Positions 1,268 through 20,465 of a stretch of 64,000 nt of DNA are shown one piece after another. Under the pieces are notes generated by a model. It saw only the letters and a list, made by a program, of their open reading frames with translations. It ran no database searches and was not told the DNA's origin. Source of the DNA: Chthoniobacter flavus. Lineage in GTDB: Bacteria; Verrucomicrobiota; Verrucomicrobiia; Chthoniobacterales; Chthoniobacteraceae. A program made the position numbers and the translations under genes. The stretch covers positions 1-64,000 of the forward strand of contig CAMAUX010000029.1 in NCBI GenBank assembly GCA_945861435.1, given 5' to 3'. How positions within the stretch are numbered: the first letter of the stretch is position 1; each line of letters opens with the position of its first letter.

Positions 1268-1708
1268 TCAGATTTCAAATGCCACCGGACCGCCGTCGCC
1301 CGCCAAACGCAACATATCTTCGATGCTTCGCTGGTCCAGAGCCGCACTCAGGTTCCTATGCACCTCCTGCATTACAGCCCGCACCGGGCAGGTGCGTGGA
1401 TCCGGGCAGGAGCAGCGTTCGGTGGGTTTCTCCGCCACGCAGGGCACGGGTGCAAGGGGTCCGTCCAAGGCCCGGATCACCTCTCCCACGCTGATGGACT
1501 GGGGGCTGCGCAGCAGAGCATAACCGCCGCCCACCCCCCGCTTGGCACTCAGCATCCCCGCATGCCTGAGAGTAAGCAGGATCTGCTCGAGAAACTTCAC
1601 CGGTATCTTCTCCCGAACACTCAATTCCTCAGTCCGCCATGCCTTGGGCTCTCTCGCCATGACCCCAAGGGCCCGCAGAGCGTATTCAGCTTTCTTGGAG
1701 ATGCGCAT
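1268..1708 (-). CDS. Rrf2-family transcriptional regulator with a four-cysteine cluster
   Basis: This 146-residue protein has the Rrf2 winged-helix N-terminus (MRISKKAEYALRAL, then a recognition region ending in GGYAL.R). Its C-terminal half holds Cys90, Cys99, Cys101 and Cys107. IscR and NsrR bind Fe-S clusters through three cysteines in this same region (IscR 92/98/104), so this is probably a redox, iron or nitrosative-stress sensor acting at promoter DNA. The spacing differs from IscR, so I give no gene symbol. No isc or suf genes are nearby; the gene lies downstream of the large ThuA/cupredoxin fusion on the same strand, with 138 bp between them. Confidence 0.85.
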   Translation of the reverse strand: MRISKKAEYALRALGVMAREPKAWRTEELSVREKIPVKFLEQILLTLRHAGMLSAKRGVGGGYALLRSPQSISVGEVIRALDGPLAPVPCVAEKPTERCSCPDPRTCPVRAVMQEVHRNLSAALDQRSIEDMLRLAGDGGPVAFEI

Positions 1709-1846: not shown

Positions 1847-4800
1847 CTAAGGCTTCACCTTGAACACCCCGCGCATCAGCAGGTGATGACCGGGGAAAGT
1901 GCACACGAAAGGATAATCCCCCGGTGCTGCGGGCGCGGTGAATTCGATGGTGTCCTGCTTGCCTCCGTCGATGAGTTTGGTGGAGGCGAGCACATCGGGG
2001 CCCTGCGGCACGAAGGTCGGCTCGATGGCCCTTGCGCCGAGAGCCGCCACGGCCATGGCCACCTCATCCGCCTTACCCGGATTCACCACCGCGAGGTTGT
2101 GCGGCATGTGGTCCGGGTTGGCGAGCGTAAGCCGGATCTTCTTCCCAGCCTTCAGCGGAAGTTCCTTCACGTCGTAGCTCATCTTCTCCACCACCGTCGC
2201 GATCCGGATTTCGGTGAGCTCGGGCTTGTCCGAAACGATCCCGGACTTCCCCGAAAGCGTGGTCTCCTTTTCGTTGGAGGCGAGGCTCGTCGTGGCCGGA
2301 GACGCATTGAACCATTGCTGCGCGTGGAGCGCCGCGAAGCGTGCATGCGGCTCAGGCGAGGCGAGAAGCTTGCCCAGCAATTCCCTGTCGTTGACCCCAT
2401 GCTGCTGCTGCGCCCAAAGCGCCTCCAGCAGGTGATGCGCGTCCTCTTTCTTCGCCGCATCAAACTGCCCGGCCCACTTCTTCACGGCCGCCACGACCTC
2501 GGCCGAGTTGCGTCCACTCAACTCCACGCGCGTCCGGTGGCGCACACCGTCCACCGGATGCTTCAAGTTCTCTAGAAGGGCCGCGATGGGCTGGCCAGCG
2601 ATCGCCACCTTGGGCTGCAGGGGACGCCCCTCCGCAGTCACCCGGTAAACGCGGCCGTGCGCATGGTCGCGGTTCGGGTCGCGGACATTGTGCTGCATGT
2701 GACCGATGATCACGTTCTGCCAGTCCGCCACGTACAGCGCGCCGTCCTCGCCGAAGATGGCGTCCGCCGGGCGGAAGTTCTTGTCGCCGCTCATCAGCAA
2801 GCCGCGCGAAGTCTGGGGCGTCTTGGAACCGTCGGGCTGCACCTCGTCCACCTTGAGCTCATCCCCGGCCGGCTCACCCCACACGCTTCCGTCCAGAAGG
2901 TTTCGCGCAAGGTGGTACTGCTTGATCCCGCGGAAACCGATCACGTTGCAGATGAGAAAATCCCCCTGCATCGCATCTGGAAAATGGCTGCTGGAGACAA
3001 TCTCCGAGGCGGTCACGGGACGGACCTCCTTTTTGAGCAACTCAAACATCTTGAAGCCCGCGCCTGCCGGACGGACTTGGTAAGCCCGCCCGCCGGTGCC
3101 GTCGGTCGCGTACTGGTAGCCCCATGTGTCGAAGGAGATGCCATGCGGGTTCGGGCTGTTCTTGGCCTGGATCGCCACGCTCGAACGGCGCGGATCAAAG
3201 CGGTACATGGCGCTTTCACCCGTGTTCAAAGAAGGCCCCCACGGACTTTCAAAGCTGTTCACGAGAAAGATCCCGCTCTGCCAGTAGATGCCGCCGTCGG
3301 GCCCCATGATGAGGTTGTTCGCCGCGTGATGCGTGTCCGCCGTCCCGAACCCCTGCAGCAACACCGTGCGCTGATCCGCCTTGTCGTCTCCATCCGTATC
3401 CTTCAGGAAAACCATCTCCGACCCCGTGGTGACCACCACGCCCCCGTTCCAAAACTCGAACCCGAGCGGGTTCTGGATCTTGGCAAACTCAGTGACCCGG
3501 TCGGCCTTTCCGTCACCATCGTCGTCGTGAAGAATGACGAGTGCGTCGTCCATCGGCTTGCCTGGCTCCCACTTCGGATACGTGGGCCAGACGGCGGCCC
3601 AGAGCCGGCCTTTGGCGTCGACCTGCAGTTGCACCGGATTGACGAGTTGCGGGAAGCGTTTCTCGTCGGCAAAGAGCGCAATCTTGAATCCCTTGGTCAC
3701 GGCGAGCTGCTCGATGGCCTTCTGTCCGTCCTGATAAGTGAGCAATCCTTCCTTCATCTGACTGGAGCTCTTGCTGCCGCCGCCCACGTTCGAGATCACC
3801 GGCACGGGCTTGGGCACGTTGCTGTCGTCCACCTTGATCTCCCGGCCCTGCGCACGCGCCCAGACCAGCGCGTCGCGGTTGGCGGTCATCGCTTCGTACA
3901 TGGCCAGTTCATGCACGAGCACCTCGGCATTGGACTGCTCGTTGACGAACTTGAGCGTCGAGCGCCCGCCCCACACATCATTGCCGTCCGTCGCGCGATA
4001 CCGATTGAACCAGTGATGGTCCTTGTCGAGAACGGCCTCGCGCAGCTTTGCCATGGAGGAGGAACTCCCCACCTCGCGTTGGAAGAAAGCCTTCGCCACC
4101 ACCTCCGCCAACTGCCGATCACCGTCCTCGCTCAGATGCACGCCGTTGAGGGTCAGCGGCGTCTTCGCTCCGGCGTAAAGCGCCTGCATCGGATGGAACA
4201 AGTCCACAAACGCGACCCCCGCCTCCTTCGCCGCCTGTTCAGTGGCCTTGGTGTACGCCTCCAGACGCACGTTGTTCTCACGGCCGTCCGGCAGGTTCGG
4301 GCTCTTGAGATTCTCGTGTGCGATGGGGCTGAAGAGCACGATGCGCGGGAAGCCCTTCCCATTGGGCTGCAGGGCGCGCGTCTTCTGCACGAACTCCACC
4401 AGCTTGCGCCGGTAATCGTCGGGCTTGTTCTCGAACGACTCGTTGTATCCGTAGAACGCGAACACCACGTCCGCCTTCACCTCCAGCAGATGCTGCGCAA
4501 CCCCCGGCATTCCACTCGTGCGCTTGGCCGCGTCCACCGTGTCGCCGCTCACCGCCATGTTGCGGAAACGCACCCCCTTGCCCTGCAACTGGCTCTGGAG
4601 CACGGTTTCCAGCCATCCATCGTGCTGCATCCGATCCCCCAGCCCGTTGCCAAGCAGCGCCACCACATCCCCCTGCTGGAAAGCAAAAGGCGCCGGATCC
4701 TTGTAACCTGCAGGCACCTCCACATTCGGCAGCGCCGCTTTCGCCTGCTCGGCCTTCTTGGGCTCCTCCTTCTTCTTTTCTTGCCGCTTTGAATCCTTCT

Positions 4801-5911
4801 TCGGTTCCTCCTTTTTCGGTTCCTCCTTCTTCGATTCCTCCTTTTTTGGTTCGGCCTTCTTCGGTTCCGCTTTCCTGGCAGTCTCGTGATTGGCAGGGAT
4901 CGGGCTTTCGAAACCATTGTAAGCCGCGGGTTTAATCCCCTTCGCATGCCCCATGTTGCTGAAGGTGTTCGGTTCGTACTTGCCCACAAAACCCACCTCC
5001 GAGTCCGGCTGGATCTGGCTCTCAAGCCCCAGCGTCCAGTACACGGCGTTCACCAGCATGCGGCGGTAGCCCGGGTTGAGCAGGTCTTCGGACGCCCCGT
5101 AGAGGGAGGTGAACACGCGGCCCTCCCGGCCGTTGGCGCCTTTGTAAGTGCGGGTCCACTCACCCGCCATCGGCTTCTTGGCGGGATCCGCAGGAGCCGT
5201 GGCCTCCATGCCATTGAGCGGCTGCGCCATGGTAAGGATGGTCCAATCGGGGGCGGGCTCGGCGTTGTAACCGCCGGCCTGGACATGAACGTCCCGCACG
5301 CCACGCAGGATGGGATGCTGGGCCTGCGCGGGCACGATGCTCATCAGGGTGCTCTGCTGATGATTCCTTCCGTAATGCCCCACCCACGTCTGCCCCAGCA
5401 CCTGGTGGCCGAACCCGTTGCGGTAATCAGCCCCATCGTACTTGAAGTGGTATTTATAAAACGGGTCGTCCTTCTTGGAGTAATTGAACGCGTGCGTGGA
5501 GGTGCGCAGGCCCACCACCGGCCCGCCACGCTGCACATACGCATCGATGTGCTTCATCTGCTCGGGTGGCAGCGCAAGAAACCGCGCAAAGATCACCAGA
5601 CCGTCCGCATCCTTCAACGCCTCAAGCCCGGGGATGTTCGACGCACCCGCCTCGATCTCCCCGTTCTTGTCCAAACCGAAGAGCACGTGGCACTCAAACC
5701 CATGGTGCATCGCGAGGATCCGCGCCAGCGCCGGGATCGTCTCCTCCGAGCGGTACTCGTGGTCGCTCGCGAGCAACACGATCTTCTTCCCCTTCACCCC
5801 GGCCTTGGAAGGTGCCGCGTAGATCACGGGATTGGCATGGACCACATTCGAAAGCCCACCCACCCAGAAGGCGGCGGCAAGGGACAACAGGAGACGGAGG
5901 CTCGTTTTCAT
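1847..5911 (-). CDS. Giant secreted fusion: ThuA-like, SGNH-like, PVC-type dehydrogenase, HEAT-like and azurin-type cupredoxin
   Basis: This is a 1354-residue exported protein. Residues about 1-27 form a signal peptide ([15 protein letters not shown]...). A ThuA-like glutamine-amidotransferase-fold domain spans about 38-320 and a Lys/Glu/Pro repeat linker 340-395. An SGNH-hydrolase-like domain spans 410-620 with NGVHLS near its end, but the usual GDS serine block reads [12 protein letters not shown]-type membrane-bound dehydrogenase beta-propeller spans 735-1095 and a HEAT-like helical stretch 1100-1195. The C-terminus (1230-1354) is a type-1 copper domain with His1271, Cys1337, His1342 and Met1346, the azurin spacing. 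Relatives of this propeller usually end in a c-type cytochrome; none is present here. I chose the ATG at 5911 as it begins the signal peptide; an in-frame ATG lies at 5917. It is probably a periplasmic sugar-oxidising enzyme passing electrons to its own copper site. Confidence 0.85.
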
Positions 5912-6125: not shown

Positions 6126-7874
6126 CTAGTTGGCGCCGGACTCTCCGCGCCTCCCCGCCTTCCCAGACTTCTTAGCCTCGATCGGCCAAGGATGCACACC
6201 GACGCGCTGCGCCCACACACTCCAGAGCGCCGCCATCTCCGCCACGCGTTCGGGATGCTGCGCTGCAAAATCGTGCATCTCCGTGCGGTCGGCCGCCATG
6301 TCATAAAGCTCCCACCCCCGGGGATGCATGGAAACGAGCTTCCAATCCCCCACCCGCACAGCCCGGTTACCCTCATGCTCCCAAAACAAAGGCTGCATGC
6401 GCCCGAGCGACCGGCCCGCAAGCGCAGGCACCAGGCTCACCCCCTCCATCGGCGCAACCGCGCGCCCGTCCCTCTGCGCGGGATACCGAGCCCCCGCCAC
6501 TTCCACGCAGGTGGCCATGATGTCGATGAGATGACCGGGCTGCCGCTCAAGCGATCCCGCCCTCGCCGTAGGAATCCCCGCCGGCCAGTGCGCGATGAGC
6601 GGTGTGCTGATGCCGCCCTCGTGCTCCCAATGCTTGTACTCGCGGAAGGGAGTGTTGCTCACATTCGCCCAGTCGCGTCCGTAAGCGATGAAGGTATCCG
6701 GCGGTCCCGGCATCACGCCAACCCCCTGCCTCACGGGGTACCCATCCCGCGTCTGCTTCGGGATCATGTCGCGTTGCAAGGCCCCTGCTTCCATCGGAGG
6801 CAGCGTCGGATGGTCGGCACGCACCGCGGACTGCTTTTGATTCCGCCCCAGCATCTCAGCGCAACCCCCGTTGTCCTGCAGGAAAAAGACGAGCGTGTTC
6901 TCCCACTGCCCGCTGCACCTCAGGGCCTCCAGCACGCGGCCGATCCCCTGATCCATCGAGTCAACCATCGCCGCGAACACCTCCATGCAACGCGACTCCC
7001 ATTCGCGGTTCGCCACGGCTTCCCAATCCCCCGTCTGAGCCGACACCTCCCAACGCGGATCCAACAACCCGAGGCCACGCATCTTCTCCACACGCGCACG
7101 CCGCACGGGTTCATATCCCCCATCGTACTTGCCGCGGTACCGCGCGATGTCCGCCTCCTTCGCATGCATCGGCCAATGGGCCGCCGTGTACGCCATGTAG
7201 AGCAGGAACGGCCTCTGCGGCGTCCGCACCGCATGCTCTCCAATCCACCGCACCGCATGATCGCTTATCGCATCGGTGTAATAAAATGCCTCCGGTTGAT
7301 ACTCCGGATCCGCATACGGCGAAACGAACGCATTGTCCCGGGCGAGAGTGTTCGGATCGTAAAAGCTCCCCGCCCCGTGGATGGTTCCGTAGAAGCGTTC
7401 AAAACCACGCTGCAGCGGCCAGTTACCGCGGTCCGCAGCGTTCTTGGGCGCCGTCTTCGCGGTCACGTGCCACTTACCCACCGCGTACGTTGCGTATCCG
7501 GCCGGCCTGAGCACCTCCGCCAGGGTCGCGGCGTGACCGCCGAGCTCACCCGCATAGGCCTCGCCGGCGGTCGCACGGCGGTCCTCCATCATGTGCCCGA
7601 TCCCGGCTTGGTGGGAGTAAAGGCCCGTCAGTAAGGCGGCACGCGTCGGACAGCACCGCGCCGTGTTGTAAAATTGAGTGAAACGCACACCGCCCGCCGC
7701 CAGCGCATCCAGATTCGGCGTCCGGATCTCCCCGCCGAAACAGCCGATATCCGAGTACCCCATGTCGTCCGCCAGGATCACCACGATATTTGGGGGCCGT
7801 CCCTCGGCCGCGGCCGGACCAATCACAGCAAACAAAAACAGACAGGAGAACACCGCAGCAGAAAGGCGCAGCAT
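6126..7874 (-). CDS. Secreted formylglycine-dependent sulfatase (arylsulfatase family)
   Basis: This 582-residue enzyme should hydrolyse sulfate esters outside the cytoplasm. The start at 7874 gives a signal peptide (MLRLSAAVFSCLFLF, cleavage after AAA). It is followed by the sulfatase N-terminal motif PNIVVILADDMGYSD, whose paired aspartates bind calcium. The maturation motif is Cys74-Cys-Pro-Thr-Arg78, where Cys74 would become formylglycine. A conserved GKWH motif follows, and the C-terminal subdomain holds a KLVSMHPRGWELYDM-like segment. A longer frame upstream is Cys-rich and lacks sulfatase character. The substrate cannot be read from sequence; carbohydrate sulfates are the usual target in this superphylum. 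No maturation enzyme gene is visible nearby. Confidence 0.93.
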   Translation of the reverse strand: MLRLSAAVFSCLFLFAVIGPAAAEGRPPNIVVILADDMGYSDIGCFGGEIRTPNLDALAAGGVRFTQFYNTARCCPTRAALLTGLYSHQAGIGHMMEDRRATAGEAYAGELGGHAATLAEVLRPAGYATYAVGKWHVTAKTAPKNAADRGNWPLQRGFERFYGTIHGAGSFYDPNTLARDNAFVSPYADPEYQPEAFYYTDAISDHAVRWIGEHAVRTPQRPFLLYMAYTAAHWPMHAKEADIARYRGKYDGGYEPVRRARVEKMRGLGLLDPRWEVSAQTGDWEAVANREWESRCMEVFAAMVDSMDQGIGRVLEALRCSGQWENTLVFFLQDNGGCAEMLGRNQKQSAVRADHPTLPPMEAGALQRDMIPKQTRDGYPVRQGVGVMPGPPDTFIAYGRDWANVSNTPFREYKHWEHEGGISTPLIAHWPAGIPTARAGSLERQPGHLIDIMATCVEVAGARYPAQRDGRAVAPMEGVSLVPALAGRSLGRMQPLFWEHEGNRAVRVGDWKLVSMHPRGWELYDMAADRTEMHDFAAQHPERVAEMAALWSVWAQRVGVHPWPIEAKKSGKAGRRGESGAN

Positions 7875-7991
7875 GGGAGCGAAGGTCAGGGGGGAGGAAC
7901 GGACGCCGCAGCAGATTGCAGCGCACCCGCAACACCATTCGTAGCCAACACACCCCGGCTTCCACAAGCCGTGAGCACTCACCGACAAGCC

Positions 7992-9921: not shown

Positions 9922-12828
9922 TCACTGAGCCTCGCGGAATTCCGCGGCCTTGGCGCCGTCGGTGGGATTCCATAAACGCAGCACGCCGTCGTCCCCGCCG
10001 GCCAGCACCCTGGCTCCATCAACCGGGACGGCGATGGCGTTCACGAAGTCGCCGTTCTCGGACATGGTCTTCGCCACCGTCCCATCGCGCGCCAGCACGC
10101 GCACCTTTCCATCCCCCGAAGCCGCAACGAACTGGTTTCCAGCGCCGAGAAAGCGCACCGCAGTGACCTCCTTGTCCACGCCCTCCACGCTCTTCCTGCG
10201 AGTACCCGTGGCGACATCCCATGTCTTCACGGAATTGTCGGCGCCGGCCGTCACGATGGCGCGTCCCTCCGGGCTCCATGCCACGCCCAGCACATGATGC
10301 GTGTGCCCCTCGAAGCTCTTCACCACCTTGCCAGACGCCACATCCACGACGCGCGCGGTCTTGTCCGCGCCGCCCGTCACCAGCGCCTTTCCATCCGGCG
10401 AAAACGCAAGGCTCAGCACCGTGTCTGAATGCACGCCGGCAATCCGCGCGGGCGCTGCATCCAACGCAGCCGTCTTCCAAAGCACGATCTCCCCCTCGCG
10501 CGACGGATCACCTCCGCCAGCCGCGAGCAGGCTGCCATCCGGGCTGAACGCGAGCGTCAGCACACGATCTCGGAGCGGCGTCACCGACTTGCCGTCGCCA
10601 AGGGTCCGCGCCAGCTTCCAACGCTCAGCCAGAGGCCAGCGCCATGCAGCGCCATCCTCCACAGCCGCGGCCACCACACCCCCAGCGCACGAGATTCCAC
10701 GGACAGCACCGCCCTGCTCGCGCCGTTCGCCAAAACTTCCCAACACCGCGCCATTCGTGGCAGAGCACACCTGCACCAAACCGGAACCGTGCCCGACCAC
10801 CAGAACACCGTCCTTCTCTGAAAAGAGCACCTCCGTAATGGCTGGCGCTGCCGCCGCCGCCTTCTTGCGCGCCTCAAGTTCGGCCGCCGCTGCGGTCTTC
10901 ACAGCCTCCTGCGCCGCAAGCGCACCCTTGGCTTTCTCAGCCGCTGTCGCCGTCGTCTTCTCCTCCGCCTGCGCGAGTTCGGCCTCGTGGGCCGCGGCAA
11001 TCCGTCCCTTCTCCGCCGAATCACGCTGCTCGCCCGCCGTGGTATGCCGCTTCGCAGCGGCCTCCTGCTCGTCCTTCGCCGTCTTGAGTGCCGCCGTCCG
11101 CTTTGCGATCTCCGCTTCCGCGGCCTTCGCGGCTTCGGCCAGCTTCGCGGGATCAGGCGCGGGAGCAGCAGCAGGAACCGCCGGCTTTGCATCGCCCTCC
11201 GGACTCGGCGCCGGTGACGGTGTGCCCGCAGGGGCTGCTGCAGCCGGGGCGGGAGCAGGATCGGACACTGCCTTCAACGCGGCCTCCGCATCAGCCACCT
11301 TCTTGTCCGCTGCGGCCAGCTGAGTCTTCGCATCATCGAGCGCCTTCTGCTTCGTCTCGACGTCCTTCGCCTTTGCAGGTGCGGCCTCCGCGGTCTTCTT
11401 AACCCGGTCTTTTGCGCCCTGAACGGCCTTGTCAGCCTCGGCCAGCATCTCCTTGCGGTAGGCAACCGTGCCATCCTCCATCTCCAACTTCCGCTGGGCG
11501 AGAGCCACCGCCGCGGTCGCCGCAGGATCCCCCTTCACCGAAGCCAGCACCTTGCCTGCGGCATCAAAAAGACGCGCGGTCTGGTCGGCACAACCTGCGA
11601 GAATCCTGCTCCCATCAGCATTCACGGACACTGCGGTCACTGCGACGGGTGCCTTGATGCGGACCGCGGGTTCAGCTCCATCGCCATCCCAAACGAAGAT
11701 CGCTCCGTCCGTGCCACCCGACACGAGGCGCGTCCCTACGCGTGCCAAGGCCAACACCTCGGCGGGATGCCCCTTGCGCTCACGGACCATCGTGCCGGCC
11801 GCCACGTCCCATTCGCGCACGACGGCGTCGCCGCCCGCAGCATGCACCGCCTTGCCATCGGCCCGCCATGCGAGCGCCTTTGCCGCGGCGGGCAGTTCGA
11901 GGGGCGTTCCAAGCCGTGCCTGCTCGCGGCTCCACACCGCCAGCTTCTTCCCATTCCCAACCACCGCAAGCTGCGCACCCGCGGGATCCCACGCCATCGC
12001 AACGACCGGCTCCGTAAACTGGAATACGACGGGAGCCGGAGACTCCTTCCCAAAGGCACGCACGGTCACCGAAGCGCCATCTGCCGTCGCGGTCCACTGA
12101 CCGTCCTCGGAGAACACAGTGAGCCCCTTGGGAACTCCTGCAACACGCGCGGGCGCGGATGCCTCGCGCTTCCAGAGCTTCAGCTCACGGAAGCCGCCGG
12201 AAACCAGCGTGCCACCATCCGGCGAGAACACGAGCGACTGGACCTGGTCCGGATGCGCCTCCGTGCGGAAGACCTCGCGGCCAAGCAGGGTGTCGTAAAC
12301 GAAGAGGCGGTTGCTTCGCGAGCAGGCGGCGAAACGTCCATCGGGCGAGACGGCCACCGCGAAGATCGAGCGCAGATGCGGCGGAAGCGGCTGCCACTTC
12401 AGCTCCCGCACCACGGCGCGGCCGGGCTTCGCTCCCTGATCGATCCAGCGTTTGAGCAGGCCGATCTGCGCCGGGGTGAGGTTCTTCGCCTTCACTTTGT
12501 TGTCGCGCGGCGGCATCGCCGCATCCGCGTCGGCGTGGCGTGCAGCCTCGAGCAGCGGACTTTCAGCACCCTTGGCCGGGATGGCAGCTGGTCCGGAATC
12601 ACCGCCCTTGAGGATGTCGGCGGCGGTCTCGAGATTGAGGCCGCCCTTGTGGGTGGACTTCGAATGGCACGACACGCAGTTGTCGGCAAGGAACGGCGCG
12701 ATGTCGGCGAGGAAATCCACGGCACGCTCCGGAGGCGGCTCCTGCACAGGGATTGGAGCCCCCTCCACTGCACCGCAACACAGCAGCGCAGCGACTGCGG
12801 TGCACGGAAGAAGACGTTTCGTATTCAT
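9922..12828 (-). CDS. Exported c-type cytochrome/WD40 beta-propeller protein with a coiled-coil insert
   Basis: This 968-residue protein starts with a signal peptide (about 1-25). A planctomycetal-type cytochrome domain (about 35-125) follows, with the haem motif Cys51-V-S-Cys54-His55 and a later MPPRDN segment; MPP.. commonly holds the axial Met. WD40 repeats fill about 130-435 (FSPDG...SGG...LW-type units). An Ala/Lys/Glu-rich coiled coil with a Pro/Ala linker spans about 440-660, and further WD40 repeats (about 680-968) close the protein. The insert splits the propeller, an unusual layout. The start ATG at 12828 overlaps the previous gene's stop as TGATG, so it is translationally coupled to it. 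It is the last gene of the DUF1501/DUF1549 operon and probably its electron-transfer and scaffold subunit; function unproven. Confidence 0.88.
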   Translation of the reverse strand: MNTKRLLPCTAVAALLCCGAVEGAPIPVQEPPPERAVDFLADIAPFLADNCVSCHSKSTHKGGLNLETAADILKGGDSGPAAIPAKGAESPLLEAARHADADAAMPPRDNKVKAKNLTPAQIGLLKRWIDQGAKPGRAVVRELKWQPLPPHLRSIFAVAVSPDGRFAACSRSNRLFVYDTLLGREVFRTEAHPDQVQSLVFSPDGGTLVSGGFRELKLWKREASAPARVAGVPKGLTVFSEDGQWTATADGASVTVRAFGKESPAPVVFQFTEPVVAMAWDPAGAQLAVVGNGKKLAVWSREQARLGTPLELPAAAKALAWRADGKAVHAAGGDAVVREWDVAAGTMVRERKGHPAEVLALARVGTRLVSGGTDGAIFVWDGDGAEPAVRIKAPVAVTAVSVNADGSRILAGCADQTARLFDAAGKVLASVKGDPAATAAVALAQRKLEMEDGTVAYRKEMLAEADKAVQGAKDRVKKTAEAAPAKAKDVETKQKALDDAKTQLAAADKKVADAEAALKAVSDPAPAPAAAAPAGTPSPAPSPEGDAKPAVPAAAPAPDPAKLAEAAKAAEAEIAKRTAALKTAKDEQEAAAKRHTTAGEQRDSAEKGRIAAAHEAELAQAEEKTTATAAEKAKGALAAQEAVKTAAAAELEARKKAAAAAPAITEVLFSEKDGVLVVGHGSGLVQVCSATNGAVLGSFGERREQGGAVRGISCAGGVVAAAVEDGAAWRWPLAERWKLARTLGDGKSVTPLRDRVLTLAFSPDGSLLAAGGGDPSREGEIVLWKTAALDAAPARIAGVHSDTVLSLAFSPDGKALVTGGADKTARVVDVASGKVVKSFEGHTHHVLGVAWSPEGRAIVTAGADNSVKTWDVATGTRRKSVEGVDKEVTAVRFLGAGNQFVAASGDGKVRVLARDGTVAKTMSENGDFVNAIAVPVDGARVLAGGDDGVLRLWNPTDGAKAAEFREAQ

Positions 12829-15113
12829 CACTTGGGAGATTCTCCCGGCACGGCGGGCTTGGCTTCGGGTTTCACTTCGGCTTTGGTGTCCGGCTTGGCT
12901 TCAGCCTTGGGCGCCGGCGGACGCACTTCAAAGGATACGGGGGTGGAATACGCCGTGGTGACGACATCGCGTCCGGCGATCTTCGCCTTCCCCGTGGTGG
13001 TGAAGTAGACGGTGTGGCGCCCGGCGGGAACCTTGAGCGCACCGAGATCCAGCTTCACCTTCACCTCGCCGGTCTTCGCATCGGCATCCACCTCCTTCAC
13101 CGTCTCCGCCCCTGCAAACCCGGCGGCCTTGACCTTGAGGACCTCCTTGAAATCGGGCACGCGGGTCAGCTTGACGCCGACCTCCAGGGATCCGCCCACC
13201 GTCGCCTCCGGTGCTCCATTCACACTGGCGGCGAGCGTCAGAGGCGCGGGTTCGGCGGCCATTCCGAGCACCAGCCCCTCCCCGCGCGCGAGCCTCTGCG
13301 AGGCTGTGTCCAGGTTGGTATCCGCAATGGTCCAGCCAGTCGCCAACACCGACGCAGGCCGCACCAGCTTTCCATCCGCACTCCTGCCCTCAAGCCGCAC
13401 GACCGCCGATCCCTTCGCAAGACCGGGATCGGCTCGCAGGATCAGCACTCCCTCTGTCTTGCCTGCCGGGATCCGCGTCGGCTCGCAGGCCACGCCCGGC
13501 GGAAGTTCGACGGCGCCCAGTTCGATCGCCTCGTTGAACCCGCCGCCACGCAGCGCCACCACGCGAATGCCCACAGTCCCCCCGGCCCGGAGGGTCACTC
13601 CGCGAGGCTCCACCTTGCGGTCATTGGCATCCGCAGCAGGAGGATCAAGGGCTGCGACCAGCCGGAAATCAGGACTGTCGCGGCGCAGCACCACGGTGTG
13701 GACGGCGGTCGTCCCGGGACGATCTGCGCCTGAAAGATCCGAGACGACGACGCTGTAGCGGCCGTCCTCCTTGATGTCCATGCGCATCGTCGGGTCGTTG
13801 TGGAGAAGGTTCAGTTTCGGTCCGCCGATGTTCTGCTCGGGACTGTAGGCCTCGGCGAGATGAGCCCCGGCCTTCTCAAGGCGCAGGAACGCGTTCACGG
13901 ACGGGAAGCCAAGCCGCTGCGCGAAAACCTCGGCGAACACCACCTCCCCCTTCTTCGCGTCGAACTCGAGGCGCGTACCGCCAAAGCCCTTTTCAAAAAA
14001 ACCAGAGAACGCACCGGGCACCGGCACGAGCGGCGCGGGCTGATCCTTCGCGGATGCGGCGCCGGCCGTCCCTTGCCCCTGCACCGCCAGCACGGGCGTG
14101 TCCACCACCGCGAGCGGCAGACCATTGGAGGCGCCGGAGGGACCGCGCAACCGGTACACGAACACGGGCAGACCTGCCGCGGAAGGCGGGAGAGTGGCGT
14201 CTGCACTGCCGCGCAGCGTATCGAGCGGCGGCACCTCCACCTCCACCGCGAGCATCTCCATGGGCTCGCCCTTCCGACCCGCAAAAGCAGGCGCCGGCAC
14301 GGAACCAGAAAGACCCCGGCCGAAAAGGGTGAGGCGGTTCTTCATCCCCGGTTGCACCGCGGACGGCACCACCGCCTCGAGAATCGGTGATTCGTCCACC
14401 AGCAGACGGTAGCCAAACTCGGCCCCGCCGCCGAACTGCAGGTCGTTCAAGACCACCAGATAGGTACCCTCCTTGGGGGCAGTGAAGCTGAGTTGTTCGC
14501 GGCGCTCATTGGAGGCAAGCCGGCGGCCGCCCTCACCAAGCACGGAAAACAACGGCACGAGCCGGGAATCAAGTTCGCGAGCCGCGCAGCGCACCGTGAC
14601 CCTCTGGCCCTGCCGGAGCTTGATGCGGAAGTGATCGCGCGCCGCGGCCACCGTCGCGCCTGAGACCGGGACGCCGAGCGCAATGTCCATGGGCAGCGCG
14701 AGCGAGCACTCACCAGTCCTGCGCTGCGCTTGCGATCGGCCGACCATGATCGTACGCGGATTCGAAACGCCGTTCTTGCCGACGGCACGCACGTCATAAA
14801 GGCCCTCGGGAACGGAGGGATCCACCTTCACGGTGAACGCCTTGTCCTTCACGAAGGCCGCGGAGATGCCTGGATGCGAGAACCAGAGGCGGTCCACCCC
14901 CTCGAGATCGGCTCCGGCCAGCACCAGCGCCTCATCCGGACCGGGGGCGAAGGATGCGCAGGAAAGGGAGTCGATCTTAGCGATCGGCAGGTCGAGGGCG
15001 TGCAGCCGGGGCGCCGGAAGCGCAGCCAGCAGAAGAGCGCAGCACATCCACAACGGCATCCATGGAGTGCGGGCGCGCATCCGTGTACAGCAGGGGCTCG
15101 GCGAGTGCCTCAT
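12828..15113 (-). CDS. Exported protein with bacterial pre-peptidase C-terminal (PPC)-like domains
   Basis: This 761-residue protein has a long signal region (to about residue 40, ending RLHA). The rest is a series of beta-sandwich domains. IPT/Ig-like repeats lie at the N-terminus (LAGADLEGVDRLWF, then VDPSVPEGLYDVRAVGKNG). A PPC-like module follows (DHFRIKLRQGQRVTVRC ... DSRLVPLFSVLGEGG ... GTYLVVLNDLQ), and a second PPC-like module sits mid-protein. It ends in a Pro/Lys/Glu-rich tail. No catalytic motif is visible; such proteins are predicted to bind or display partners at the cell surface. The start at 15113 overlaps the stop of the upstream DUF1549/1553 gene as TGATG, and its own stop overlaps the next gene the same way. 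Confidence 0.8.
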   Translation of the reverse strand: MRHSPSPCCTRMRARTPWMPLWMCCALLLAALPAPRLHALDLPIAKIDSLSCASFAPGPDEALVLAGADLEGVDRLWFSHPGISAAFVKDKAFTVKVDPSVPEGLYDVRAVGKNGVSNPRTIMVGRSQAQRRTGECSLALPMDIALGVPVSGATVAAARDHFRIKLRQGQRVTVRCAARELDSRLVPLFSVLGEGGRRLASNERREQLSFTAPKEGTYLVVLNDLQFGGGAEFGYRLLVDESPILEAVVPSAVQPGMKNRLTLFGRGLSGSVPAPAFAGRKGEPMEMLAVEVEVPPLDTLRGSADATLPPSAAGLPVFVYRLRGPSGASNGLPLAVVDTPVLAVQGQGTAGAASAKDQPAPLVPVPGAFSGFFEKGFGGTRLEFDAKKGEVVFAEVFAQRLGFPSVNAFLRLEKAGAHLAEAYSPEQNIGGPKLNLLHNDPTMRMDIKEDGRYSVVVSDLSGADRPGTTAVHTVVLRRDSPDFRLVAALDPPAADANDRKVEPRGVTLRAGGTVGIRVVALRGGGFNEAIELGAVELPPGVACEPTRIPAGKTEGVLILRADPGLAKGSAVVRLEGRSADGKLVRPASVLATGWTIADTNLDTASQRLARGEGLVLGMAAEPAPLTLAASVNGAPEATVGGSLEVGVKLTRVPDFKEVLKVKAAGFAGAETVKEVDADAKTGEVKVKLDLGALKVPAGRHTVYFTTTGKAKIAGRDVVTTAYSTPVSFEVRPPAPKAEAKPDTKAEVKPEAKPAVPGESPK

Positions 15114-17707
15114 CAGTGGTTGAAGAGAAACTCCTTCGAGTTGATGAGCGTCCACACAAGATCCTCATAGGCCTCGCGACGGCCCTTCACCGGATCCACC
15201 GGCTGCCCGTCCCCACCCACGCGGGGTTTGCGGAGATGCTTGAGCGCAAGGGTCGATTCCTCGGGCATCGGCGGCCGGCTCAACGCACCGAGGTAGAGTT
15301 CCTCCAGCTTACGCTCGTCCGGATCGGATCCCTGTGCGTAACGGGCGGCCGCGCCAGTGTCCGACGCAAGGCGGGTCTGGATGTCCTTCGCGTTGATGAG
15401 ATGCAGGGCCTGCGCGAGGCTCGCGTCCTGGCTGCGCTCACACTCGCAGGCACTCGAGGATTCGGGCCGCCCGAAGACGGTGAGGAAGTAGCTGCCCGCA
15501 TTGAAGCTGTTGTCCGGAAGGCTGATGGCGCGCGTGCCCTGCGGAAGCCCCGCGAAGCTCCCTCCCACCATCGTCACACGGCTGATTGCATCGTGCAGCA
15601 CCTCGGCCGGAAGACGCTTCGGATAATAACGCGAAAAGTTCTGCCGGTCGGCGCTGTTGAAGGCGTTCGGGATCGCACTGCGCTGATAGGTCTCCGAACG
15701 CGTGATCTCGCGGATCAACGCCCGCTGATCGAACCCGCTCGCGACAAAGTGCCGCGCGAGCGTGTCGAGAAGTTCGGGATTCGAGGGAGGGTTGGTGTCG
15801 CGCATGTCATCCTCCGGCTCCACGATCCCGCGGTTGAAGAAGTGCTTCCAGTAACGATTCACGAGCGCGCGCGCGAAGAAGGGGTTCTCCGGCGAACGCA
15901 TCCAATCGGCAAGCACCACGCGCGGGTCGACCTCCGGGGCGATGCGCATCTCGCCGGAGCCCAGTGCGGCTGGCTTCACAGGCTGCTTCGTCTTCTTGTT
16001 CACGGCCGCGGCCTCACCGCGCTTGTGCATCACAAGGTCGCCCGGCTTGCGGCCCACCTGGGTGAAGAACGCCGAGAAGCGGTAGTAGTCCGCCTGGCTC
16101 CACTTCTCAAAGGGATGATGATGGCATTGCGCGCACTGCAGCCGGGTGCCAAGGAAGAGCTGGGCCGTGTCCTCGAGCTGCTGCTGCGGTTCCTTCACCT
16201 GCTTGTACCATGCAGCGGGCGGGTTCTCGGCCGGGGTGCCGCTTGCCGCCAGCACCTCGCGCACCATCGCGTCGTACGGCTTGTTGGTGCGGAACGCATC
16301 CACCAGCCACTGCGCAAACGCGAAGTTCATCGGCGCGTCCTGCGCTTTTGTGCGCTTGTTGCGCAGCAAGGCGTTCCACTTGCTGGCGAAGTATTCCGCG
16401 TGCTCGTCGCTCTCCAGAAGCCTGTCCACAAGCGCATCCCGCTTGTCCGCGCTCTTGTCGACCACGAACGCGGCCACCTCCGCAGCATCGGGCAGGCGCC
16501 CCGCGATATCGATGCTGGCCCGGCGCAGGAAGGTCGCGTCGTCGCAGCGGTCCGAGGGCGGCATGCCCATGGCCTTGAGCTTCGCGAACACGGCGCGGTC
16601 CACATCGTTGCGAGGTTGCGGCAGGTGGTCGACCGGCGCACCCAGCGGAATCGTGGCACGGAACACGGTCGAGAGACCCTGGTAACGGACCATCACCGCG
16701 ACATCACCAGGTTGGTCGGCGACAGCCACGTTGCCCTCCTCGTCCACGGTGGCGAGGCTCTTCTCGTTGGGCTCGTAGAGGGCGCTGCGCGTCACGTCCC
16801 CGACGCTGCCATCGCTGTAACGAACCAGCACCGCGAGCTGCTGCGATCCCTTGAGCGCCATCACCCGCGCATCCGGAAACACCTCCAGCGACTGCACCTT
16901 CGGATCCTCGGGCTTGCCGCAGGGCATCCCCTGCTGGATCCAGCGAAGGACCAGACGGTAGTCGTCCGATGCCGTATCCATGCGCTTTCCACCCCCATGC
17001 GGCGAAATCCCCGTGCCCTTGAGCAACAGCAGGCTGTTCTCCGGTGAGGCCGGGAAAAGACGGCGTCCGCGCGCCTCCCGCACCAGATGCTCGTAATCCT
17101 CATCCGGCTCAAACCCAAGCAGCGACAGCTTGAATCCATTCTGGCCGCCGGATTTCCCGTGGCATCCGCCCGAGTTGCAGGAGGCCTTCGTGAAAACCGG
17201 GACGACGTCGTTGGCAAAATTGATCGGCTTTGCCGCCTGCGCACCCTCGACCCGCACGCGCATTTCGGCCTGCGTCCCACTCGCCTCATGCAGCGCGCGC
17301 ACCACCGCACTGCCATTCCCGCGCACACTCATCCGCCCCCCTTCATCGATCTGAACGACGCCCGCGGGCTCGATCGTGAATTTCACGGACCGGGTGGCGT
17401 CGCGTAGCGCGCCGGTTGGAGCGCGCAGCGCGATGTTCAGCTGCCGCACCGCATCCGCACCCCGAAGAAGCAGCTCCCCGTTCGCGGGCTTCGCCAACTC
17501 CGCGAATTCGAACTGCAGCACCCCGGAAGATCCCGCCGCAGCCTGCTCCAACGCAGCCTGCGCAACGCCCGCAGACACAAGGAGGAGGCATGCCGCGGAA
17601 GCTTGAAGAGTCCGCGCAAACCAACCCGCCGAACGCCATCCATGAAGTCCATGCCCTCCGTGAATGAGTGGCACGGCGGTTTCTAAAATCGGTAGCTTCA
17701 GGCGCAT
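15113..17707 (-). CDS. DUF1549/DUF1553 cytochrome-like secreted protein
   Basis: This 864-residue protein has a signal sequence ending around VAQA (about 50) and a bacterial Ig-like region (60-165). Next comes a haem-like segment with Cys177-x4-Cys182-His183, a CX4CH variant I recall as common in this family. DUF1549 runs from about 360 to 550 and contains a canonical Cys525-A-Q-Cys528-His529 followed by HHPFEKW..DYY. DUF1553 covers about 620-835 with RALVNRYWKHFF and QRSAIPNAFN-like motifs. The protein could carry two covalent haems in the periplasm. The reaction is unknown. It lies 39 bp downstream of a DUF1501 gene and is coupled by TGATG to the PPC-like gene. Confidence 0.9.
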   Translation of the reverse strand: MRLKLPILETAVPLIHGGHGLHGWRSAGWFARTLQASAACLLLVSAGVAQAALEQAAAGSSGVLQFEFAELAKPANGELLLRGADAVRQLNIALRAPTGALRDATRSVKFTIEPAGVVQIDEGGRMSVRGNGSAVVRALHEASGTQAEMRVRVEGAQAAKPINFANDVVPVFTKASCNSGGCHGKSGGQNGFKLSLLGFEPDEDYEHLVREARGRRLFPASPENSLLLLKGTGISPHGGGKRMDTASDDYRLVLRWIQQGMPCGKPEDPKVQSLEVFPDARVMALKGSQQLAVLVRYSDGSVGDVTRSALYEPNEKSLATVDEEGNVAVADQPGDVAVMVRYQGLSTVFRATIPLGAPVDHLPQPRNDVDRAVFAKLKAMGMPPSDRCDDATFLRRASIDIAGRLPDAAEVAAFVVDKSADKRDALVDRLLESDEHAEYFASKWNALLRNKRTKAQDAPMNFAFAQWLVDAFRTNKPYDAMVREVLAASGTPAENPPAAWYKQVKEPQQQLEDTAQLFLGTRLQCAQCHHHPFEKWSQADYYRFSAFFTQVGRKPGDLVMHKRGEAAAVNKKTKQPVKPAALGSGEMRIAPEVDPRVVLADWMRSPENPFFARALVNRYWKHFFNRGIVEPEDDMRDTNPPSNPELLDTLARHFVASGFDQRALIREITRSETYQRSAIPNAFNSADRQNFSRYYPKRLPAEVLHDAISRVTMVGGSFAGLPQGTRAISLPDNSFNAGSYFLTVFGRPESSSACECERSQDASLAQALHLINAKDIQTRLASDTGAAARYAQGSDPDERKLEELYLGALSRPPMPEESTLALKHLRKPRVGGDGQPVDPVKGRREAYEDLVWTLINSKEFLFNH

Positions 17708-17746
17708 GGGGTGGTGCGGGGGTTGATCTGGTGGGGGACGGATCGT

Positions 17747-19093
17747 CTAGAGGAGCTCCCTCATCGGCGACCAGCCGTCGACGAGGTACTGCGGGCGGCC
17801 GGAAAGATCAGGCAGAGTGGTATTCGCAAGGTCGATCCCGAGCCAGTGGTAAAGCGTCGCGAAAACCTCGCCGAAATGCACCGGACGATCCGTGGGCTCG
17901 CCGCCGAGGCGGTCGGTCGCTCCGATCACCTGCCCGGTCTTGAAGCCGCCACCGGCCAGCACCGCGCATCCCACTCGCGGCCAGTGATCGCGCCCAGCGT
18001 CCTTGTTAATCTGCGGCGTGCGGCCGAACTCCCCCCACGCCACGACCGCGACATCCTTGTCGAGACCGCGCTCGTGCAGATCCTCCACCAACGCCGTCAG
18101 CCCTTGATCAAAAAGCGGCAGGTGCGTGAGCAGCTCCGAGTGGTTCGCGGAATGGAAATCCCAGCGCCCGAAATTCATCGTCACACAACGCGCCCCGGCC
18201 TCCACAAGACGGCGCGCGACAAGGAAGTGCTCGTTGTTGCGAGGCGCACCATCGCCGTAGTTTTTGGTGTCGCCCTTGCCATAGCGCTCGCGGGTTTTGG
18301 CGCTTTCCTTGGAGACATCGAGGGCTTCGAGCAGTCGGCTGGAGGTCAGCACGTCGAAGGCCTGCTGGTTGAAGGTGTCGAGCCCCGCCATCAGCCCGCT
18401 CTGATCCGCATCGCGACGCATTCTGTCAAACGCACCAAGAAGCGCGCGCCGATCGCCAAGACGATCGCTAGAAATCCCGTTGAGCGTCAGATCACCAACC
18501 CCCTCCCCGTTCGGTCGAAACGCCGAATAGGCGGGGCCAAGGAAACCGGGATGGCCGGGCGATCCGTACGGGGGGTGACCCGCCTTCGGTGCAAGCCCCA
18601 CGAAGGGAGGCACCTCACGGGCGCTGCGGGGAACCAGCTTCGTCATCACCGATCCAATCGAAGGCCAGCCTCCGGGCGGCACCGGCACGCCCCTCGCGCT
18701 GCGGCCCGTGTAGCACACGTGCGAATCGTGGTCGCCCGTCACCGACCCCCACATCGAGCGGATCGGCACCAGCTTGTCCATGATCCGCGCCGAATGCGGC
18801 ATGTGCTCGGAAATCTGGATCCCGGGCACCTTGGTGGAGATCGGCTTGTAAGGTCCGCGGTATTCGAGCGGCGCGTCCATCTTCAGGTCGAACATGTCCT
18901 GATGAGGCGGCGCGCCCGCCATGTAGATCATGATCACCGATTTCGCGGATCTGCCCACACGCGAAGCCGCCTCCGCCTGCAGCAGCTGCGGCAGACCGAT
19001 TCCACCCATCGCAAGGCCGCCAATCCGCAGGAAATCGCGGCGCGAAACACCATCGCAAAAAGCGCGTCCTAGATTGCCGGGAATGGTCAGCAT
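17747..19093 (-). CDS. DUF1501 protein, Tat-type signal (first of a tandem pair)
   Basis: This 448-residue protein begins with a twin-arginine-type signal ([15 protein letters not shown]), implying export folded, perhaps with metal. The core shows DUF1501 features: [20 protein letters not shown], a VCYTGRSARG region, an HSANHSELLTH-like segment and [17 protein letters not shown] near the C-terminus. DUF1501 is related in fold to the alkaline phosphatase/sulfatase superfamily, so metal-dependent ester hydrolysis is plausible but unproven. The start at 19093 is the first Met before the Tat motif; upstream sequence is non-family. It follows the paralogous gene by 28 bp and precedes the DUF1549/1553 gene by 39 bp, so the three are probably co-transcribed. 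Confidence 0.9.
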   Translation of the reverse strand: MLTIPGNLGRAFCDGVSRRDFLRIGGLAMGGIGLPQLLQAEAASRVGRSAKSVIMIYMAGAPPHQDMFDLKMDAPLEYRGPYKPISTKVPGIQISEHMPHSARIMDKLVPIRSMWGSVTGDHDSHVCYTGRSARGVPVPPGGWPSIGSVMTKLVPRSAREVPPFVGLAPKAGHPPYGSPGHPGFLGPAYSAFRPNGEGVGDLTLNGISSDRLGDRRALLGAFDRMRRDADQSGLMAGLDTFNQQAFDVLTSSRLLEALDVSKESAKTRERYGKGDTKNYGDGAPRNNEHFLVARRLVEAGARCVTMNFGRWDFHSANHSELLTHLPLFDQGLTALVEDLHERGLDKDVAVVAWGEFGRTPQINKDAGRDHWPRVGCAVLAGGGFKTGQVIGATDRLGGEPTDRPVHFGEVFATLYHWLGIDLANTTLPDLSGRPQYLVDGWSPMRELL

Positions 19094-19121
19094 GGGGGGG
19101 AAGGACGAGAAGCTGTCGGGA

Positions 19122-20465
19122 TCAGACAAGCTCGCGCAACGGGTTGCACCCAGGTTCCACGAGGTACTGGGGCCGGCCGGAGAGGTCGTTGAGAGTCGCC
19201 TTTGCAGCGTCGATGCCGAGGTGATGGTAGAGCGTCGAGAACACCTCGCCAAAACGCACCGGCCGCTCATCCGCCTCGCCGCCGAGACGATCTGTGGAGC
19301 CGATCACCTGTCCATGACGCAGCGCCCCACCGGCCATCAGCGCGCACGAGACGCGCGGCCAGTGGTCGCGGCCGCCGTTTTTATTGATCACCGGCGTGCG
19401 CCCGAACTCGCCCCAAACCACCACCGCCACATCCTTCTCCATGCCGCGGTCGCGCAGATCATCGAGCAGCGCGGTCAGTCCTTGGTCCAGCAACGGAAGA
19501 TCCTGGCGCAGCGCACCGAAATTGTCGCCGTGATGATCCCAGCGGCTGAACGCCACCGTCACCACCCGGGCACCCGCTTCCACGAGACGACGTGCCGCGA
19601 GGAAGTGCGTCATCAGCTTCGGGCCGCCGTCGTCCCGGTTCTTCGCATCCCCCTTGCCGTAGCGCTCCAAGAGCGCGGGGGATTCCTTGGAAACATCGAG
19701 CGCATCCAGGAGCTTGCTCGAGGTCAGCACCCCAAACGCCTGCTGGTTGAAGGTGTCGAGCCCTCCCATCAATCCGGATCCGTCCACATCGCGGCGGAAT
19801 TTGTCGAAGCCTTCAAGAAGCGCACGCCGATCCGCCAACCGATCCAAGGTCACCCCGTTGAGCGTCATGTCCTCCACCCCGCTGCCTTTGTTCGGCTGGA
19901 ACGGCGCGTGCCGCACACCAAGGAATCCGGGCTCACCGGAACGCGCCCACTCCATGTGCCCCATCTTCGGAGGCAGCCCCACGAAGGCCGGAACCGAAAG
20001 GTCCCGCTGCCCTTGAAGACTCGACACCACCGAACCAAACGCAGGCCACCCGCCCGGAGGCTGGTTTTTCTGCGAGCGCCCGGTCAGGCACTGGAAAGCG
20101 TCGTGCTGCACATCGCACTCCACCATCGAACGGATCAACGTGCAGCGATCCATCCGCTTTGCCAGAAGCGGAAGATGCTCCGAAATCTGGATCCCGGCCA
20201 CATTGGTCCCGATCGGGCGGAACTCCCCGCGGATCTCGCCCGGGGCATCCATCTTCAAGTCAAACATGTCCTGATGCGAAGGACCGCCCGGCAGGAAGAT
20301 CATGATGACGGACTTGGCCGAAGTGGCCGCGCCGCTCAAAGCCTGGGCTGCGAGCACACGAGGAAGGGAAGCACCGCCGAGCGCGAGGCCACCGATGCGG
20401 AGGAAATCGCGACGGGAAACACCATCGCAGAACCGGCCGCCTTTGCTGCCAGAGATCGTGATCAT
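19122..20465 (-). CDS. DUF1501 protein, Tat-type signal (second of a tandem pair)
   Basis: This 447-residue paralogue of the next gene downstream shares almost the same signal ([15 protein letters not shown]) and length. It also shares the C-terminal [18 protein letters not shown] motif and the [23 protein letters not shown] region. Its fold relation is to the alkaline phosphatase/sulfatase superfamily. The similarity along the whole length, including the signal, indicates a tandem duplication. It is the first gene of the putative five-gene operon; 221 bp separate it from the third DUF1501 gene. I set the start at the ATG at 20465, directly before the Tat region. Confidence 0.9.

Follow-up and report, generated by a model that had tools for sequence, protein, structure and literature searches.

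An exported TIGR02604-family propeller protein with a predicted type-1 copper domain at its C-terminus, and the exchange of that domain for cytochrome c among its relatives

The 64,000-nucleotide stretch of DNA analysed here (the window) contains a minus-strand open reading frame (ATG at 5911, stop at 1847) of 1354 amino acids, the product of which is predicted from its ligands and fold to end in a complete type-1 copper domain. Among its relatives the copper tail and a haem tail appear to be functionally interchangeable, with each apparently having replaced the other repeatedly at the same joint. The frame had been reported in the original prediction, without a strand, and does exist; the observation made there is confirmed and lies far beyond chance, whilst the interpretation placed upon it is supported in part.

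The chain, all features of which are on the minus strand, begins with what reads by eye in the translation as a Sec-type signal peptide (around residues 1-26; 5834..5911), suggesting that the protein is exported. This is followed by a ThuA-like domain (around residues 41-300; 5012..5791) that matches Pfam PF06283 over residues 93-293 with 39.3 bits, above the cut-off of 33.4, and whose motifs are kept in 68 relatives. A K/E/P-rich linker (around residues 345-395; 4727..4879) is evident in the translation and the alignment, and in many relatives Pfam finds a discoidin (F5/8 type C) domain inserted at this position. The next domain is SGNH/GDSL-like (around residues 405-610; 4082..4699), with a PF13472 match of 59 bits at 431-604, above cut-off. 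Both members of the SGNH catalytic set that were looked for, the nucleophilic Ser of block I and the Asp of DxxH, are absent from the window protein, with GNGL found at the Ser block and NGVH (NxxH) where DxxH is expected. The loss is not peculiar to this protein, as residue counts at the Ser position in around 128 relatives give G in 90, A in 17, S in 12 and T in 9; the domain keeps its fold motifs, but in most relatives the Ser nucleophile is gone.

The six-bladed propeller (TIGR02604/DUF7133; around residues 730-1100; 2612..3724) is recognised both by profiles and in an AF2 model, with scores over residues 730-1094 of 205.9 bits for DUF7133 and 184.2 bits for TIGR02604 (cut-off 122.2), both above cut-off. 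Behind it lies a HEAT-like helical block (around residues 1108-1203; 2303..2590), placed by the AF2 helices and the junction alignment. A domain search of the full protein recovered the ThuA, SGNH, propeller and cupredoxin regions in one chain, as had been proposed. The HEAT-like region proposed alongside them finds support in the six helices that follow the propeller in the AF2 model (residues 1109-1203) and in matches to PF13646 (HEAT) in 11/35 relatives at a permissive E<=1 and above cut-off in one relative, but not in the HEAT profile itself, which gives a non-significant E of 0.78 in the window protein.

The last domain is a type-1 copper cupredoxin of the auracyanin/azurin kind (around residues 1230-1354; 1850..2224), recognised by TIGR02695, by profile matches to PDB entries and in an AF2 model. 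The NCBIfam azurin model TIGR02695 matches residues 1235-1351 with 48.5 bits (E 1e-12), which does not reach its equivalog cut-off of 105.1 bits, and the Pfam PF13473 score is just under its cut-off. Within the cupredoxin fold the His/Cys/His/Met type-1 ligand set is present, the predicted copper ligands being His1271 (2099..2101), Cys1337 (1901..1903) and His1342 (1886..1888) with Met1346 (1874..1876) as the predicted axial ligand, and the numbering originally given for all four is exact. All four are kept without exception in the full-length orthologues (7/7) and the copper-tailed relatives (100/100), although the latter were picked by the pattern C..[PA]GH...[MQ] and the conservation of Cys1337, His1342 and Met1346 in that set is therefore partly circular. 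His1271 and Asn1272 are outside the selection pattern, hence their conservation is independent of how the set was chosen. Conservation of the ligands in homologues was one of the points at which the original prediction was open to refutation, and it survived. Its naming of the domain as azurin-type needs some adjustment; the type-1 copper site and the azurin-like fold hold, but the cupredoxin is nearer to auracyanin than to azurin. The domain profile finds auracyanins in the PDB at E 9e-26 to 2e-20, with azurins following at about 2e-17, and the AF2 model (pLDDT 90) superposes on auracyanin with Z 18.9 and an rmsd of 1.4 A, compared with Z of about 17 and 1.9 A for azurin.

A motif search of the whole window chain found no CxxCH. 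Relatives of the propeller had been said usually to end in this motif, and in the host genome this is so for 22 of the 26 propeller chains examined, with the other four ending in a copper domain. Each of the 26 has exactly one redox tail, none having both and none neither, and by our own arithmetic the chance of four copper domains falling on exactly the four CxxCH-free chains is 1/14950. Outside the 26 chains counted, the host has an extra copper domain (G000:C93:7253-7591), in a frame of 1382 aa whose match to TIGR02604 is weak. Dozens of independent MAGs encode chains of the window protein's architecture, as do the records of cultured strains, amongst them Verrucomicrobium sp. BvORR106 (L102) and Neorhodopirellula pilleata Pla100 (L119), the chain of the latter being without ThuA and with an added cytochrome; this recurrence rules out an assembly or frameshift artefact. 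The bearers of this large exported protein are soil and freshwater bacteria. The gene is also found in five public MAG records with doubtful names (L077, L081, L085, L098 and L121; Akkermansia muciniphila, Proteobacteria, Kuenenia).

A wider sample of the subfamily, consisting of family genomes and 80 named loci, contains three kinds of tail: copper alone, copper with a TIGR02603 cytochrome c behind it, and a cytochrome c of the PF00034 type alone. The 80 loci are biased to copper tails, since similarity to the window decided their ranking. Among loci at >=50% identity, with the proviso that several MAG labels are doubtful, the Planctomycetota have copper plus cytochrome in 20/20 cases and the Verrucomicrobiota have 43 copper tails, 7 copper plus cytochrome, 2 cytochrome and 2 that are cut. 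The azurin-then-cytochrome chain is thus the rule in Planctomycetota. Altogether 28 relatives, the 20 from Planctomycetota among them, have the two-carrier tail (L103:5386-9552, L119:5275-9483, L130:5914-11073 and 25 others), with the cytochrome lying about 65 residues past the azurin. The idea that the copper domain stands in place of a cytochrome is therefore correct for the subfamily of the window, but not for these 28, which carry both. The further idea, that a tethered acceptor makes electron transfer intramolecular, is right in that the copper domain is tethered, but the copper form has this in common with the cytochrome-tailed relatives, which are tethered likewise.

How the tails are distributed was followed in trees of the propeller and HEAT regions with the tail left out, in which L121 was entered as copper-only, a chain that runs to the contig end and whose tail is possibly incomplete. 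Cytochrome-only chains fall at three places inside copper-tailed clades, and by this tree cytochrome-only tails have at least three origins within the copper-tailed clades of the window's subfamily. A single origin, with all five cytochrome-only chains in one clade, was rejected (p-AU 5e-42), the group tested being defined by tail type and not by the tree; a clade of L144, L078 and L017 was rejected also (p-AU 1.4e-4). One exchange is seen in the cytochrome-tailed L144, whose identity to the copper-tailed L111 and L116 is 92-94% between residues 730 and 900 and 91-92% between 900 and 1100. In the junction alignment it switches to cytochrome directly after a common AGDVEEK, just past the HEAT-like block. 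Between the tails of L144 and L017 the identity is 79%, so that recombination among relatives is the probable way in which tails move. No split azurin gene was found beside the cytochrome-tailed chains of L144, L078, L045 and L046, the single azurin-pattern match in L045 reading through stops.

It might be argued that the cupredoxin serves to bind or store copper and takes no part in electron transfer, as the ligand set alone fits storage as well as it fits electron carriage. This is very improbable, since the cupredoxin and cytochrome c have been exchanged repeatedly at one joint and azurin-cytochrome tandems occur, both of which point to a function that the two domains have in common, and the only such function is the carriage of electrons. 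That copper and haem have replaced one another several times at this joint suggests instead that the chain passes on electrons from sugar-like substrates.

Where these electrons would come from is a question for the propeller. Its AF2 model (pLDDT 87) finds PQQ sugar dehydrogenases as the best structural matches, with Z 27.4 over 279 residues against 3a9g and Z of about 24 for DFPase and lactonases; the six-bladed quinoprotein propeller fold is present, a fold that is common to lactonases and DFPase. A PDB sequence search with the propeller profile returned chance propeller repeats only, and Pfam GSDH (PF07995) had no match to the propeller. In a weak profile alignment to true GSDH (probability 76%) Asn921 and Arg1047 are on conserved PQQ-pocket positions, and the equivalents of two PQQ-contact arginines, which we take to be Arg228 and Arg408 in the numbering of sGDH, are missing in 35/35 relatives, with Pro/Ala/Val/Gly/Thr at 920 and Ser/Thr/Val/Ala/Ile at 1049. 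In the host genome (96% complete) pqqC is absent and pqqE does not rise above cut-off, and pqqC/pqqE are present in 1/38 relatives (G018). A genome with at least 26 chains that have a quinoprotein-fold propeller thus lacks both genes at this cut-off, and it is possible that the host takes up external PQQ. The description of the propeller as a dehydrogenase agrees with the fold but not with the findings on PQQ, and the term oxidase-like is unsupported as no oxygen-reducing site is recognisable. Eight charged residues of the propeller (D859, H861, E888, D1063, H1071, D1078, R1087 and R1090; window 2642-3337, minus strand) are invariant in 35/35 relatives down to around 31% identity, suggesting that the propeller has a functional site, putatively catalytic or metal-binding.

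The chain is likely to take part in breaking down glycosides, and it is plausible that one step of this is oxidative. In favour of a link to carbohydrate are the PQQ-sugar-dehydrogenase-like fold, the ThuA domain and the 27 matches to DUF1080 (3-keto-disaccharide hydrolase) in the host genome. One frame of 1292 aa in the host (G000:C88; L068:6454-10329) combines DUF1080, a TIGR02604 propeller and a CxxCH tail, and is a candidate hydrolase-propeller-cytochrome fusion. Gluconate_2-dh3 has no match in the host genome; a member of this family, which we take to be tied to LacABC, is present in Caulobacter, where LacABC makes 3-ketolactose. Also in favour is Lac161_ORF7 (AGW45552), a purified verrucomicrobial TIGR02604-HEAT-cytochrome c protein which hydrolyses lactose with a Km of 1.8 mM (PMC5342196).

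The activity of Lac161_ORF7 can be read in another way, as that of a propeller which is a redox-independent glycoside hydrolase or a carbohydrate-binding module, the tail then being used for docking to an electron-transfer complex, for redox sensing or to connect the chain with another oxidoreductase from which the electrons come. The missing PQQ-contact arginines and host pqq genes fit with this, which is unlikely yet far from negligible; what counts against it is that one redox tail is kept in 26/26 host chains and that tails are swapped for another carrier and not lost, which would be unexpected if electrons were irrelevant to the work of the chain. A slimmer prospect is that electrons flow in reverse, with the copper tail taking electrons from the respiratory chain and giving them to a step that is reductive or helped by redox chemistry, as in the three-domain nitrite reductases. 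Tethered cytochrome or cupredoxin donors are indeed known in copper nitrite reductases (PMC13324648, PMC6278305), but the proteins that the propeller most resembles in structure are dehydrogenases or lactonases and not reductases.

On balance we lean, with modest assurance, towards a periplasmic member of the PVC-type TIGR02604 family, an exported protein of several domains that processes carbohydrates and has a tethered electron carrier of its own at the C-terminus, the tails being interchangeable. A glycoside would be bound or oxidised at the propeller, a modified quinoprotein-dehydrogenase fold, by means of some cofactor, and its oxidation may yield a 3-keto intermediate that would then be cleaved by a ThuA-like or DUF1080-like activity. 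The tethered copper would receive the electrons, its part being played by haem in relatives and by copper followed by haem in planctomycetes, and the tail would hand them on to periplasmic respiratory cytochromes. The parts of this scheme to be read from the sequence are the domains, the export signal (by eye), the predicted copper ligands and the apparent exchangeability of the tails. The absence of the two arginines and of pqqC/pqqE from the host counts against it, as does the report of Lac161_ORF7 as a hydrolase, given that a hydrolase needs no electron carrier.

The gene neighbourhood also offers the scheme no help. No conserved operon context was found across the loci of relatives, sulfatase and DUF1501-type neighbours occurring at a minority of loci, and the clustering of propeller and DUF1080 genes (4/39, p 0.09) is not significant and was left out of the evidence. 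In the window the same-strand neighbours are an Rrf2-type regulator (1268-1708, minus strand) and a sulfatase (6126-7988, minus strand), which are not conserved beside the gene in most relatives. Further along, at 9922-19303 (minus strand), is a gene run typical of PVC bacteria, comprising PSCyt1-WD40, an unassigned protein, PSCyt2/PSD1 (DUF1549/DUF1553) and DUF1501.

More tentatively, and on present evidence rather doubtfully, the protein could represent a widespread class of periplasmic enzymes that oxidise glycosides at a PQQ-independent propeller and have a plug-in carrier (copper, haem or a copper-to-haem wire) at a fixed joint, and the family could be the missing glycoside 3-dehydrogenase of PVC bacteria. 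If true, it could fill a gap in bacteria that have dozens of 3-keto-glycoside hydrolases and no dehydrogenase subunit of the Gluconate_2-dh3 type. TIGR02604 proteins belong to the most expanded groups in the PVC bacteria covered here, as the host genome illustrates. Azurin and cytochrome c have been exchanged repeatedly in nature on one and the same chain, and this comparison is direct evidence for an electron-carrying tail, with L144 and L111/L116 providing near-identical pairs that differ only in the carrier. The copper-then-haem version of planctomycetes suggests an order of transfer, whilst the single-domain copper tail would be an easy optical handle on the redox function and substrate of the family.

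The TIGR02604 family and the tethered copper or haem partners of nitrite reductases are already known; what appears to be new is the azurin fusion and an unusually clean record of carrier exchange. In the literature searched there was no description of an azurin fusion or of tail exchange, nor was the name "PVC-type heme-binding CxxCH protein" found. The available part of a survey of azurins, with 287 hits in 238 Verrucomicrobia genomes, does not mention the fusion (PMC8779525).

Amongst known systems the copper domain is most like auracyanin and azurin, in fold, in sequence profile and in the His-Asn plus Cys-x4-His-x3-Met layout of its ligands, but those are free carriers, whereas this is the C-terminal domain of an enzyme-like chain of 1354 amino acids and scores below the azurin equivalog cut-off. 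With the PQQ soluble sugar dehydrogenases (3a9g, 2ism, 3das; PF07995) and AA12 pyranose dehydrogenase the propeller has its six blades in common, and with the PQQ sugar dehydrogenases it also has in common Asn921, Arg1047 and a conserved His in corresponding positions; unlike them it lacks a Pfam GSDH match and the two PQQ-contact arginines, and its host lacks pqqC. Lac161_ORF7, the only biochemically studied relative found, has the same TIGR02604-HEAT-cytochrome c plan, but it ends in a cytochrome where the window chain ends in copper, and it is reported as a beta-galactosidase, with no redox activity mentioned in the available part of its description (PMC5342196). The three-domain copper nitrite reductases (PMC13324648, PMC6278305) are likewise enzymes with a fused redox partner of copper or haem type, although their catalytic module is unrelated and in the window's family the type of tail switches within a clade of close orthologues. 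The PVC-type heme-binding CxxCH proteins (TIGR02604 with TIGR02603 or PF00034; formerly "membrane-bound dehydrogenase domain") have the same SGNH-propeller-HEAT core and include orthologues 61-69% identical to the window protein with a CATCH cytochrome tail. The window chain differs from them in having a type-1 copper tail and no haem motif, and for that reason it is misnamed by the label "heme-binding CxxCH", which automatic annotation gives to the family.
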